DNA of 64,000 bases from Aureimonas sp. AU4 (lineage in GTDB: Bacteria; Pseudomonadota; Alphaproteobacteria; Rhizobiales; Rhizobiaceae): assembly GCF_001463765.1 (NCBI RefSeq), contig NZ_BBWK01000006.1, positions 62,001-126,000 on the forward strand, read 5' to 3'. The notes below the pieces were generated by a model. It was not told where the DNA came from. It was given only the letters and a program-made list of their open reading frames with translations, and did not search any database. Numbering within the stretch: the first letter of the stretch is position 1; every line of letters begins with the position of its first letter. Shown here piece after piece: positions 15,694-21,548 of this stretch. The translations under genes were made by a program, and so were the position numbers.

Positions 15694-15811
15694 TGGCTCG
15701 GACCCCCGGCGCTGGTAGCTGCCAAGGCTCGGATACGGTTCGCCCTCCCCAAGGGGGCGCTCGGGCATCCTCGCAGGGATGCGGGCGGCGCGAAGGCTCG
15801 AAGGGCCGGAC

Positions 15812-16588
15812 ATGCAGCTTCAGGGCAAGTCGATCATCGTCACGGGAGCGGCGCAGGGGCTCGGCCGGAAGATGGCGGAGATGCTGGTGGAAAGGGGCGC
15901 GCGGGTCGCGCTCGCCGATAGCGACGAGCGCCCGCTCCGCGAGGCGGAACGCGGTTGCCGGGACGCCCTGTCCATCCCGGCCGGCGGCGCCTGCAGGGGC
16001 TATGTGGCCGACATGCGCGAGGAAGCCGAGGTGACGGAGCTGTTTCAGCGCGTGCGCGAGGACTTCGGTCCGCTGGACGCGCTCGTCAACAATGCCGGGA
16101 TCACTCGCGACGCGCTTCTGGTGGAGGGCGGCGAGGGGCTGGTCGCGGCCCGGATGTCGCTGGACGATTTCCGGCAGGTCGTCGCCGTGGATCTCGAGGG
16201 CGTCTTCCTGTGCGGGCGCGAGGCGGCGACGCACATGGTCCGGGACCGCCGGGGCGGCGTCATCCTCAACGTCTCCAGCATCTCGCGCTGCGGCAATGTC
16301 GGCCAGACCGCCTACTCGGCCGCCAAGGCGGGCGTCGCCGCGATGACCGTGGTCTGGGCAAAGGAACTCGCGCGCCACGGCATCCGGGTCGCCGCGATCG
16401 CGCCGGGCTTCAGCGACACGCGCATGGTCGCCGCCATTCCCGAGACGATCCGCGCGCGCCTCGTCGCCGCGATCCCCGCCGGGCGGCTGGCGCGCCCGGA
16501 CGAGATCGCCGAGGCGGCGGTCTTCGTGCTCGGCAACGACTATTTCAACGGCCGCGTCCTCGAGATCGACGGGGGGATGCGGCTATGA
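15812..16588 (+). CDS. SDR family oxidoreductase, FabG-like
   Basis: A 258-residue short-chain dehydrogenase. Seen: the Rossmann glycine motif TGAAQGLGR, LVNNAGITRD, the catalytic serine in NVSSISRCG, and the YSAAK Tyr/Lys pair. As first gene of the phaC operon, a 3-oxoacyl-CoA/acetoacetyl-CoA reductase role supplying the polymer precursor is plausible, although FabG-type enzymes act on many substrates. The ATG at 15812 aligns with the usual N-terminus; an upstream ATG at 15779 lacks homologous residues. Its stop overlaps the phaC start (ATGA). Confidence 0.88.
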   Translation: MQLQGKSIIVTGAAQGLGRKMAEMLVERGARVALADSDERPLREAERGCRDALSIPAGGACRGYVADMREEAEVTELFQRVREDFGPLDALVNNAGITRDALLVEGGEGLVAARMSLDDFRQVVAVDLEGVFLCGREAATHMVRDRRGGVILNVSSISRCGNVGQTAYSAAKAGVAAMTVVWAKELARHGIRVAAIAPGFSDTRMVAAIPETIRARLVAAIPAGRLARPDEIAEAAVFVLGNDYFNGRVLEIDGGMRL

Positions 16589-18468
16589 ACGACATGACGC
16601 TCCGGGAGATGGACTGGACGCCGCCCTGGCTGGACGCCGCGTCCCGCAACTGGCGCGCCTGGTCCGCCACGTGGCAGGCCCTCGGGCGACCCTCCTTTCC
16701 GCTGCAAGGGGGACCCGGCTCGCCCGAGGCGGCCGGTGACGCCGAGGCGGAGGACGGGCCGACCAGCATCGACCGCCTGTTCCACGCGGGCCTGGCGCGC
16801 CTCACCGCCGGCCTGTCTCCGGCAGCCCTGTGGCTGGCCTATGCCGACTGGGCCCTTCACCTAGGCTCCTCGCCGGGCAAGTGCGCGCAGCTCGGCGAGA
16901 AGGCCGCGCGCAAGGCGGTTCGCCTCGCGACCTACGCCGCGCGCCTTGCCGCCGATCCGGCCTGCCCGTCCTGCATCGAGCCCCTGCGCCAGGACGACCG
17001 GTTCCGGGACGAGGCGTGGCTGGAGCCGCCGTTCAATCTGATCCACCAGGCCTTTCTCCTGAACCAGCAGTGGTGGCACGGGGCGACCACGGGCATCGGC
17101 GGCGTGTCGCGCCACCACGAGCAGCTCGTCGCCTTCATGGCACGCCAGCTTCTCGACACGGTCTCGCCGGTCAACTTCGTGGCGACCAACCCCGAGGTCC
17201 TGGCGGCGACGCTGCGCGAGGGCGGGCAGAACCTCCTGCGCGGCGCCGCGAACTTCTGGATGGACTGAGAGCGGGCGGCGGGCGGCAAGCCGCCGGTCGG
17301 CACGGAAGCCTTCCGGCCGGGCCAGCACGTCGCGACGACGAAGGGAGAGGTGGTCTTCCGCAACCGGCTGATCGAGCTGATCCAGTACGCCCCGGCGACG
17401 CCGGACGTTTATGCCGAGCCGGTCCTGATCGTGCCGGCCTGGATCATGAAATACTACATCCTCGACCTGTCGCCCGGGAACTCGCTCGTCCGCCACCTCG
17501 TCGCGGCGGGCTACACCGTCTTCATGATCTCCTGGCACAACCCGACCGCGGCGGACCGCGATCTCGGGCTGGACGACTACCTGAGGCTCGGCGTCCTCGA
17601 TGCCCTGAAGGCCGTGGAGGCGATCGTGCCGGTCGCGCCGGTTCACGCGGTCGGCTACTGCCTCGGCGGCACGCTCCTCACTATCGCGGCGGCCTATCTG
17701 GCGCGCGAGGGGCGCGGGGCGCTCCACTCGATCACGCTTCTGGCGGTGCAGACCGACTTCAGCGAGGCGGGCGAACTGATGCTGTTCATCGACGACAGCC
17801 AGCTCGACTATCTCGAGGACGTCATGTGGGACCAGGGCTATCTCGACACGCGCCAGATGTCCGGCGCGTTCCAGCTCCTGCGCTCCAACGACCTCGTCTG
17901 GTCGCGCGTGGTGCGCGAGTACCTGTTGGGCCGGCGCCGGCCGATGACCGACCTCATGAACTGGAACGCGGACACGACGCGCATGCCCTACCGCATGCAC
18001 AGCGAATACCTGCGCGGGCTGTTTCTGTCCAACGACCTGTTCGAGGGGCGCTACGAGGTCGACGGCCACCCGGTGGCGCTCGGCGACATCCGCGCGCCGC
18101 TCTTCGTGGTCTCGACCGAGTGGGACCACGTCGCGCCGTGGCGCTCGGTCTACAAGATCAACCTCCTGAACGATGCCGACGTGACGTTCGTGCTGACGAA
18201 CGGCGGACACAATGCCGGCATCGTCAGCGAGCCGGGCCACGCGGGGCGGCACTACCGCATGGCGCGCCGCGCCCCGGGCGCCCGGTATCTCGACCCCGAC
18301 AGCTGGTACGCGCTCGCCGAGGTGAGCGAGGGGTCCTGGTGGAACGGCTGGCTGGCCTGGCTCGGCGAGCGGTCCGGGGCGAGGCAACCGCCGCCGCCGC
18401 CCGGTGCGCCCGGCCGCGGCTATCCGGTGCTGGCCCACGCGCCGGGGCGGTACGTCCTGGAGCGATAG
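16585..18468 (+). pseudogene. phaC: Poly(3-hydroxybutyrate) polymerase phaC interrupted by an in-frame TGA
   Basis: Reading one frame from the ATG at 16585 gives a full-length class I-like PHA synthase of 627 codons with a single TGA at codon 228 (17266-17268). The upstream part (227 residues, PhaC N-terminal domain, PPFNLIHQAFLLNQQWW) and the downstream part ([15 protein letters not shown], then [13 protein letters not shown]) are in the same frame, so this is not a frameshift. All catalytic residues lie downstream: Cys359 in GYCLGG, Asp in EWDHVAPW and His in NGGHNAG. A GTG at 17350 opens the 3' frame but has no properly spaced ribosome site. A sequencing error, a recent nonsense mutation or UGA readthrough could each explain it; the otherwise perfect reading frame argues against an old pseudogene. 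Confidence 0.8.
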
Positions 18469-18498: not shown

Positions 18499-18912
18499 AT
18501 GAGCGAACAACCCAATTCCCACAACGGCGCCCAGCCGCAATCGCCGTTCGGCATGCCGAACTTCGGCGCGGCCTGGCAGACGCCGCTGAAGACCTTCGTG
18601 CCCGAACAGGCCGAATGGTTCGAGGAAAGCCGAAAGATGATGGGGGCCTGGATGAAGCGTCGCCAGGACGCGATGGAAAGCGGCCTGAAGACGCTCGGGG
18701 CGATCGCGGAGTGCCGCGATCCCGGCCAGGTCGCGGCCCTCTACAACGACTGGTACAAGGGCAGCCTCGAACGCCTGATGGCCGACATGAACGACGCGCG
18801 CGACGAGGGCGCCAAGCTCGCCGAGATTGGCCAGCGTTCGATGATGGCCCTGTTTCGTCGCGGACTGGATGGTGCCGCCGAGGTCCGGCCCGGCAACGGT
18901 CCGCAGACCTGA
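18499..18912 (+). CDS. Phasin family protein
   Basis: A 137-residue, mostly helical amphipathic protein. An N-terminal low-complexity segment (Asn/Gln/Pro, about 30 residues) is followed by helices such as EQAEWFEESRKMMGAWMKRR. Phasins coat polyhydroxyalkanoate granules. The assignment rests on composition, length and position directly after phaC. The ATG at 18499 has GGGAG at 18486-18490. The downstream MaoC-Pta gene follows after 40 nt. Confidence 0.8.
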   Translation: MSEQPNSHNGAQPQSPFGMPNFGAAWQTPLKTFVPEQAEWFEESRKMMGAWMKRRQDAMESGLKTLGAIAECRDPGQVAALYNDWYKGSLERLMADMNDARDEGAKLAEIGQRSMMALFRRGLDGAAEVRPGNGPQT

Positions 18913-18952: not shown

Positions 18953-20371
18953 GTGGACCGGATCGAGAACCGGACCTTCGACGAGGTGCGGATCGGCGAC
19001 GCGGCGAGCCTCACGCGCACGCTGACCGGCCGGGACGTGGCGCTCTTCGCGCTGGCCTCGGGTGACATCGAGCCGGCGCCGCTGCGCGAAGGCGGCGCCG
19101 GAGCCTGCCAGCCCTTGCAGGGCGTCGGCCAGAACCTCTGGAGCGGCGCGCTCGTGGCCGCCGTGCTGGAAACCGAGCTGCCGGGGCCTGGCACGCTCTA
19201 TCTCGGCCAGACACTGCGCTTCGGGCGGCCTGTCGAGGTCGGCGACAGCGTGACGGCCACGGTCCGGGTCGTCGAGAAGCACGCCGACCGCCGCCGCGTC
19301 GTTCGCGCCTGCACCGCCCTCAACCAGCGGGGCGAGACGGTGGTGGAGGGCGAAGCCGAGGTGATCGCGCCGCTCGAGCGGATATCCTGCGAGCGCGCCA
19401 TGCCGCCGGAGATCGAGTTCCGCCGTCCCGGCCGTCAGTACGAGCGGCTGATCGATCTGGCGAAGGGCCTGTCGGCGATCCGGACCGCAGTGGTCCATCC
19501 CGTCGACGCGACCGTGCTCGCGGGCGCCGCGGCGGCGGCCGCGGCGGGCATCGTCGTGCCGGTTTTCGTCGGGCCGGAGAAGAGGATCCGTGCCGCGGCC
19601 AAGACCGCCGGGATCGACGTCTCGCGCTTCGAGCTCGTCGCCACCGAACACAGCCATGCCGCCGCCGCGGCGGCGGCCTCGCTCGCGCGGGACCGCAAGG
19701 TCGAGGCGCTGATGAAGGGCAGCCTCCACACCGACGAGTTCATGGCCGCCATTCTCGACGAGCCGCTTCTGCGCACCGGCCGGCGCATGAGCCATGTCTT
19801 CGTGGTGGATGCGCCCCGCTATCCCCGCCCGCTGCTTCTCACCGACGCCGCCGTCAACATCGCGCCGACGCTCGGCGAGAAGCGCGACATCGTCCTCAAC
19901 GCGATCGATCTCGCCCATGTCCTGGCCGTGCCCGAGCCGCGCGTCGCGATCCTTTCGGCGGTGGAGACGGTGAACGAGAAGCTGCGCTCGACGCTGGATG
20001 CCGCCGCGCTCTGCAAGATGGCCGATCGCGGCCAGATCTGCGGTGCGATCCTCGACGGGCCGCTCGCCTTCGACAACGCCGTCTCGGCGGAGGCGGCCAG
20101 CGCCAAGGGCATCGTGTCGCCGGTCGCGGGCCGGGCCGACATCCTCGTCGTGCCCGACATCGAGGCGGGAAACATGCTCGCCAAGCAGCTGGAATATCTG
20201 GCCGAAGCGCAGGTCGCGGGCGTCGTCCTGGGCGCGCGCGTGCCGGTGATCCTGACGAGCCGCGCCGACAAGACGCTCGCGCGCCTCGCCTCCTGCGCGG
20301 TGGCGCGGCTGCTCGCCCACGCCCGCCGCACACCAGCACCCGCCGATGCGATGGTCGCGAGCCATGGCTGA
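18953..20371 (+). CDS. pta: Bifunctional MaoC-like enoyl-CoA hydratase/phosphate acetyltransferase
   Basis: A 472-residue fusion. Residues 1-145 form a MaoC/hot-dog domain (FDEVRIGDAASLTRTLTGRD and YLGQTLRFGRPVEVGDSVTA). Residues 155-472 form the phosphate acetyl/butyryltransferase domain (MKGSLHTDEFM, LLTDAAVNIAPTL, DGPLAFDNAVS). It interconverts acetyl-CoA and acetyl phosphate for the next gene; the hydratase half may channel (R)-3-hydroxyacyl-CoA. GTG at 18953 is chosen because AAGGGAG lies 8 nt upstream. The 3' end overlaps ackA by 8 nt. Confidence 0.92.
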   Translation: MDRIENRTFDEVRIGDAASLTRTLTGRDVALFALASGDIEPAPLREGGAGACQPLQGVGQNLWSGALVAAVLETELPGPGTLYLGQTLRFGRPVEVGDSVTATVRVVEKHADRRRVVRACTALNQRGETVVEGEAEVIAPLERISCERAMPPEIEFRRPGRQYERLIDLAKGLSAIRTAVVHPVDATVLAGAAAAAAAGIVVPVFVGPEKRIRAAAKTAGIDVSRFELVATEHSHAAAAAAASLARDRKVEALMKGSLHTDEFMAAILDEPLLRTGRRMSHVFVVDAPRYPRPLLLTDAAVNIAPTLGEKRDIVLNAIDLAHVLAVPEPRVAILSAVETVNEKLRSTLDAAALCKMADRGQICGAILDGPLAFDNAVSAEAASAKGIVSPVAGRADILVVPDIEAGNMLAKQLEYLAEAQVAGVVLGARVPVILTSRADKTLARLASCAVARLLAHARRTPAPADAMVASHG

Positions 20372-21548
20372 GACGCCCGCGATCCTCGCCCTCAACGCGG
20401 GCTCCTCCAGCGTCAAGTTCGCCCTGTTCGAGGCAGGGGCGAAGCGCACCGTCTCGGGCGCCCTTGCGGATACGGGCTCCGGCCTGCGGCTCGAGGCCAC
20501 CGCGGGCGGGACGCGGACCTGCGAGGACTGGACCGCGCCCGGCGGGGAGGAGGGCGAGGCGCCGGTCCGCCGCCTCGTCGCCTGGCTGGAGGCGCACCTT
20601 CCCGCCGGGCGCCTCGACGCCGTCGGGCACCGGGTCGCGATCGGGGGGCTTGCCCATTCCGCGCCGGTGCGCGTCACGCCGGATGTGCTGGCGGCCTTGC
20701 GCGCGCTCACCCCGCTCGCCCCGTTGCACCAGCCCCGCAGCCTCGCACCGATCGAGGCGCTCGCCGCCTCCCATCCCGCGCTCCCGCAGGTCGCCTGCTT
20801 CGACACGAGCTTCCACCGCACCATGCCGCGCGAGGCCGAGACCTACGCGCTGCCGCGCGCGCTGACGCAGGCCGGGGCGCGCCGCTACGGCTTCCATGGC
20901 CTCAGCTACGAATACATCGCCGGCCAGCTTACCGCGATCGACGCGCGCGCGGCGGGCGGGCGCACGATCATCTGTCACCTCGGCAGCGGCGCCAGCCTGT
21001 GCGCGATGCGGGCCGGCCGAAGCATAGCCACGACCATGGGCTTCAGCCCGCTGTCGGGGCTCGTCATGGCGACGCGGCCCGGCGACCTCGACCCCGGGCT
21101 CGTGATCTGGCTCCTGCGCGAGCGGGGCCTGAGCCTCGCCGAGGTCGAGCATCTTCTCTACCACGACTGCGGCCTCAAGGGCGTCTCGGGCTCGAGCGGC
21201 GACATGCGGGTGCTTCTCGCCAGCGACGACGCGCGAGCGCGCGAGGCGGTCGCGCTCTTCGTCCAGACGGTCGCGGGGGAGATCGGGCGGCTTGGCGCCG
21301 CGCTCGGCGGCCTCGACGCCCTGGTCTTCACCGCCGGCATCGGCGAGCACGCGCCCGCGATCCGCGAGGCGGTCTGCCGACGGTCCGAGTGGCTTGGCGT
21401 CCGGCTGGACGAGGAGCGCAACCGCGCGGGACAGGGGCGGATCAGCCGATCCGCGAGTCCGGTCTCGGTCTTCGTCGTGCCGACCGACGAGGAGCGCGTC
21501 GTCGCCCACCACACGGCGCGACTGCTCATGGCGGATGCAGCCGCTTGA
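20364..21548 (+). CDS. ackA: Acetate kinase
   Basis: A 394-residue ASKHA kinase making ATP from acetyl phosphate. Motifs: LNAGSSSVKFALF at the N-terminus, the active-site region FDTSFHRTMP, the phosphate loop HLGSGASLCAM, GFSPLSGLVMATRPGDLDPG and TAGIGEHAP. With the fused Pta gene it gives substrate-level ATP from acetyl-CoA, which suits oxygen limitation. The next FixK-type box begins over its stop codon. Confidence 0.95.
   Translation: MAETPAILALNAGSSSVKFALFEAGAKRTVSGALADTGSGLRLEATAGGTRTCEDWTAPGGEEGEAPVRRLVAWLEAHLPAGRLDAVGHRVAIGGLAHSAPVRVTPDVLAALRALTPLAPLHQPRSLAPIEALAASHPALPQVACFDTSFHRTMPREAETYALPRALTQAGARRYGFHGLSYEYIAGQLTAIDARAAGGRTIICHLGSGASLCAMRAGRSIATTMGFSPLSGLVMATRPGDLDPGLVIWLLRERGLSLAEVEHLLYHDCGLKGVSGSSGDMRVLLASDDARAREAVALFVQTVAGEIGRLGAALGGLDALVFTAGIGEHAPAIREAVCRRSEWLGVRLDEERNRAGQGRISRSASPVSVFVVPTDEERVVAHHTARLLMADAAA

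Follow-up and report, generated by a model that had tools for sequence, protein, structure and literature searches.

A single in-frame TGA in an otherwise conserved accessory PHA synthase gene of Aureimonas sp. AU4, probably a very recent nonsense mutation

We found that an accessory phaC gene of Aureimonas sp. AU4 is interrupted by a single in-frame TGA, and we consider it probable that a very recent, true point nonsense mutation inactivated the gene. The gene lies in the window, that is, the whole 64,000-nucleotide stretch of contig NZ_BBWK01000006.1 (positions 62,001 to 126,000 of the forward strand) that was analysed and to which unlabelled positions refer. Its frame spans 16585-18468 and comprises 627 codons, and the sole interruption is the TGA at 17266-17268, codon 228 (...[16 protein letters not shown]...); the frame and its translation thus bear out a preliminary description of this DNA, which had reported a near-complete PHA synthase frame with a single TGA at this codon. 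In the mechanism we propose, a point mutation would have created the TGA in this accessory (second) PHA synthase gene, translation would end with residue 227, where the N-terminal domain finishes, so that this start would yield no catalytic domain, and loss of the spare copy would be tolerated because an intact class I phaC is present elsewhere, on contig C27. We infer that the base is real, that the second half yields no product, and that selection on the operon is relaxed. The weights given here to this and to the competing readings rest partly on general knowledge of the frequency of nonsense lesions and base errors rather than on computation.

The two sides of the stop belong to one protein family. 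The N-terminal fragment (16585..17268, + strand; 227 aa plus the TGA) contains PHBC_N and the first part of PhaC_N, and the C-terminal part in the same frame (17269..18468, + strand; 399 codons plus TAG) contains the entire alpha/beta-hydrolase catalytic domain. A Pfam profile search matched PhaC_N positions 1-93 before the stop and 108-173 after it, followed by the alpha/beta-hydrolase domain, and an NCBIfam profile search covered TIGR01838 positions 19-136 before and 151-531 after. Because the two fragments hit adjacent parts of one family, the continuity of the frame is not due to chance, and the earlier claim that domains are preserved on either side of the TGA holds. With PhaC_N and hydrolase domains above the Pfam cut-offs and Cys-Asp-His present, the gene belongs to the PHA synthases. 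C359, D514 and H542 occupy invariant columns of a 33-row alignment, and their role as the catalytic triad follows from that alignment together with passages of PMC5509742 and PMC4008487; all three are encoded 3' of codon 228, and the triad therefore lies wholly after the stop, as had been described.

The genes around phaC follow an operon-like order: SDR, phaC, phasin, a MaoC-phosphotransacetylase fusion, and acetate/propionate kinase. The stop of the SDR (3-ketoacyl-ACP reductase-like) gene (15779..16588, + strand; alternative start ATG 15812) overlaps the phaC start in an ATGA at 16585, consistent with the coupling of these two genes proposed earlier. The downstream phasin gene (18499..18912, + strand) is intact, as had also been stated: its reading frame is open from the ATG at 18499 to the stop at 18910-18912, and its product scored 29.2 bits against a cut-off of 24.9 for Pfam Phasin_2 (scored from 18502, three bases past the ATG), while no model matched it in the NCBIfam profile search. 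It is followed by an intact gene for a bifunctional enoyl-CoA hydratase (MaoC)-phosphate acetyltransferase (18953..20371, + strand; NF006045, 675.4 bits, cut-off 282) and by the acetate/propionate kinase gene (20346..21548, + strand; TIGR00016, 334.4 bits, cut-off 293.4), which starts at 20346 or 20364.

We compared codon 228 across 110 relatives and found a stop in none of them, either at this codon or elsewhere in the aligned part. These relatives are 112 loci minus two that are the window itself; one of them is the second phaC of this genome (L001), and they are partly redundant, since L011 and L091 appear to be one contig. Ten with less than 50% identity were omitted before the constraint counts described below, which leaves 100 close relatives that are at least 50% identical. 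Among these 100, TGG is the commonest codon at position 228 (41 relatives), and the other 59 have other sense codons, so the position is not invariant; Trp occupies it in 16 of the 20 best-scoring relatives, including the best four. Codon 228 is also TGG in genome G010, which holds the sole same-genus orthologue, and a single base difference accordingly accounts for the stop, as anticipated by the suggestion that one base change (for example TGG to TGA) suffices. The residue at this position in orthologous PhaC, which had been put forward as a check, is thus Trp in G010 and in the 41 close relatives with TGG. Judged from these aligned codons, the stop is not ancestral. Accessory phaC hence shows one mark of a nonsense pseudogene, an in-frame stop within a conserved domain that is missing in orthologues.

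Stops were flagged in three rows among the matches listed, namely the window's own and two from genome G581. Of the G581 copies, the first (L143) is free of stops in the part aligned from query residue 61 on, and its flagged TGAs precede that part. The second (L144, about 1206-2930) is a phaC relative with a shifted-frame patch in which a TGA and a TAA occur a little ahead of where the window has its stop, and is either a frameshifted copy or an assembly fault. We also considered a second copy of this phaC on a plasmid and rejected it: 32 records matched, none covered 80% of the query, and 31 of the 32 were at 60-80% identity. Many plasmid records label accessory-type phaC genes merely 'alpha/beta fold hydrolase'.

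Apart from the stop, the encoded protein looks, by its sequence, like an ordinary functional member of the family. At columns strictly invariant among the close relatives it is changed at 0 of 14 positions N-terminal and 0 of 66 C-terminal to the stop (0/80 in total), a test of little power, as 0 is also the median for intact relatives. At columns conserved at 97% it is changed at 0 of 26 and 0 of 107 positions (0/133 in total), which puts the amino-acid changes per codon at no more than 0.0225 (rough 95% limit), and at columns conserved at 90% it is changed at 0 of 41 and 1 of 154 (A459N). The corresponding medians over 101 sequences, N- and C-terminal, were 0 and 0 at the strict level, 0 and 0.9% at 97%, and 2.4% and 2.6% at 90%. 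Furthermore, pairwise dN/dS of phaC against G010 was 0.20 before the stop (codons 60-227) and 0.21 after it, at a pairwise dS of about 0.8-1.1 that is near saturation; both halves are equally constrained. Since neither half shows decay in its invariant columns or its dN/dS, we rejected a long-standing pseudogene; the stop would be either very young or not real, that is, a base-call error.

A second, intact phaC lies on contig C27 of the same genome; it encodes 608 aa and scored 716.6 bits with the class I model TIGR01838 (cut-off 622.65). Genes of this group are present in all 21 of the genus genomes, and their products are 38-42% identical to the window protein, whereas the accessory type was found in only two of the 21, the window's genome and G010. 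The window phaC, with its TGA taken as Trp, scored 518 bits, under the class I cut-off of 622.65, as did the G010 orthologue (489.9 bits); because the latter is unbroken yet below the cut-off, the low score reflects a divergent accessory group and is not an effect of the stop. The full-length MaoC-Pta fusion is likewise confined to the same two of the 21 genomes, six others having a strong match to the Pta part. In G010 the fusion gene carries an in-frame TAG in its MaoC part (L113:13159-13161, - strand), where the window has a sense codon. In pairwise comparison of the window with G010, the MaoC part diverges much more than the Pta part (dN/dS 0.58 vs 0.18), a difference that does not give the lineage of the change. 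Pairwise dN/dS for SDR (0.29), phaC (0.23) and ackA (0.36) was well below 1, indicating that the operon has been under selection for most of its history. Mainly its rarity, together with two different stops in two genes of two genomes, suggests that selection on the accessory operon may since have become relaxed. The intact second phaC, the rarity in the genus and the different in-frame stop in the sister operon go beyond what had been described before.

The G010 operon is otherwise similar to that of the window, and its missing phasin gene is a separate observation: there is no room for it between phaC and maoC-pta. The maoC-pta search across the genus genomes also returned further matches with stops. 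For the G003 pta match and for a weak MaoC-like match on contig C22 of the window's own genome, the TGA is the gene's own end. A weak match on contig C14, again in its own genome, carries TAG, and no tblastn match was obtained there; a weak match with TGA was seen in G001.

A sequencing or assembly error, in which case the gene would be normal and codon 228 a sense codon, is possible but clearly the less likely account of the TGA. The assembly is a draft of 139 contigs, the stop is a lone substitution-type difference with no other lesion or decay across 627 codons, and the absence of decay is equally expected from a base-call error. However, when we surveyed the 205 kb contig for stops (not frameshifts) with a strong same-frame coding signal on both sides, only phaC proved to be interrupted among four flagged stops; the other three, judged by eye from the translations, look like plain same-frame gene junctions, and 40 kb of C27 gave no flagged stop. 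In this survey, 3212 of 5723 sampled internal codons (56%) of 83 long reading frames would pass. Thus, the assembly is not visibly error-rich. Moreover, bacterial accessory genes commonly carry genuine nonsense lesions, and the sister operon has one as well. Programmed UGA readthrough, which would yield full-length PhaC by insertion of selenocysteine, or of Trp through a leaky or suppressor tRNA, is highly improbable, even though the frame is open and conserved on both sides of the TGA and the G010 orthologue has Trp, the residue expected from near-cognate insertion. Searches for selB gave six matches, none above the cut-off (best 88.4 vs 242.25; from a draft of 139 contigs a gene may be missing), and searches for tRNA-Sec gave ten, again none above it (best 46.3 vs 47; 150 of 712 first-look candidates scored). 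The best tRNA-Sec place scores 60.3 bits with the general tRNA family and is probably an ordinary tRNA with a long variable arm. RF2 is present (504.1 bits). The sole tRNA-Trp found (7 places matched the pattern; 3 loci were scanned for tRNAs) has anticodon CCA, a 5-bp anticodon stem and, by alignment reading, A9 and G24 rather than A9C or G24A, and so has none of the features that PMC13092985, in the part that gives these criteria, ties to UGA reading. RNA folding gave no sign of unusual structure: three overlapping stretches around or after the stop were no more stable than their shuffled versions (z 0.16, 1.58 and -0.14). An in-frame UGA stands at this codon in 0 of the 110 relatives, which, with selB and tRNA-Sec below cut-off, does not match a selenoprotein or a gene with programmed readthrough, and the signs of UGA-to-Trp recoding (many in-frame TGA codons, RF2 loss, an altered tRNA-Trp) were not found, the stop survey having covered about 245 of 4492 kb. 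On the relatives, selB and tRNA-Sec, RF2, tRNA-Trp, RNA folding and the stop survey we rejected both programmed readthrough and a change of code, and relaxed selection suits the two stops, seen in one rare operon in two genomes, better than recoding does. Of the three options offered in the preliminary description, sequencing error and very recent null mutation therefore both stand, while programmed readthrough has become unlikely.

It is also very unlikely that the stop leaves a useful split or short product, in which a free N-domain may bind and damp the main PhaC and the catalytic part is perhaps made from a GTG at 17350. A model of the read-through protein built from the 33-row alignment (mean pLDDT 79.6) places residue 228 in the last helix of the N-domain (215-233; mean pLDDT 87 for 221-230), with the first core strand predicted at 254-259. 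The stop would thus leave a truncated product with nearly the whole N-domain and no catalytic residue. With solved crystal structures of catalytic domains, the alignment begins at query residue 242-243, and the predicted break falls ahead of this point. The best structural matches were PHA synthases, including full-length Aeromonas caviae PhaC; rmsd was 14.8-17.4 A for full-length structures (ranks 1-9), so the placement of domains in the model is not reliable, and 3.2-6.5 A for catalytic-domain entries (ranks 10-15). Parts of two papers lend the idea some support, one describing the N-domain as important for dimer stabilisation (PMC5509742) and one proposing that PhaC1/PhaC2 heterodimers regulate synthase activity in Bradyrhizobium (PMC10888616). 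In contrast, when a different PhaC was truncated at its N-terminus, the PHA content mostly fell (PMC10867992). The possible re-start GTG (17350..17352, + strand; codon 256), the first in-frame ATG/GTG/TTG after the TGA, has an anti-SD pairing of -8.7 kcal/mol before it, near that of the maoC-pta GTG (-8.6), but it is a poor candidate: the purine-rich stretch ends about 2 nt upstream, which is too close, and 2 of the 23 other in-frame start codons of the C-terminal part score better in anti-SD pairing. In 43 of the 100 relatives codon 256 is likewise GTG, read as valine; only 6 of 100 have an SD-like motif ahead of it, and none of the 110 relatives is split at codon 228. A class III-like split enzyme was not supported by the anti-SD scores, by the rarity of this motif or by TIGR01836, with which the C-terminal part scored 118.5 against a cut-off of 365.3, outside the two-subunit classes III and IV. 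Hence we regard a natural split or decoy synthase, its free 227-aa N-terminal dimerisation domain damping the main PhaC and its catalytic domain lost or made from GTG 17350, as most improbable.

For a recent nonsense mutation there are parallels. In Ralstonia eutropha (Cupriavidus necator) PHB-4, a TGG-to-TGA change of the kind proposed for the window truncates the phaC product before the catalytic residues and accounts for the PHA-negative phenotype (PMC4008487). That lesion arose by chemical mutagenesis, leaves 106 aa and affects what the paper calls the only active PHA synthase, whereas the present one is found in a deposited genome and leaves 227 aa in an accessory gene whose paralogue is intact. 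Fragments of phaC from seawater DNA with internal stops are called pseudogenes in the relevant part of PMC4326521, and they share an in-frame stop inside a phaC sequence with a PhaC_N domain; there, the stop is a TAG in seven PCR clones, while here it is a TGA in a genome contig with full context. Bradyrhizobium phaC2 is similarly an extra phaC beside a main one, although the section of PMC10888616 concerned reports no nonsense mutation in it, and we liken it as an accessory phaC, not as an orthologue. A literature search found no paper combining PHA synthase, phaC and premature stop codon. Given PHB-4 and the seawater pseudogenes, however, this kind of event is already known, and the window phaC is one more case. 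For annotation, the accessory phaC is best marked as an interrupted gene, or else its sequence verified against a base error, and whatever PHA the strain makes should be attributed first to the C27 phaC. At most, the finding would capture an early stage in losing a redundant operon for carbon storage, in which two species of the same genus bear separate lesions.
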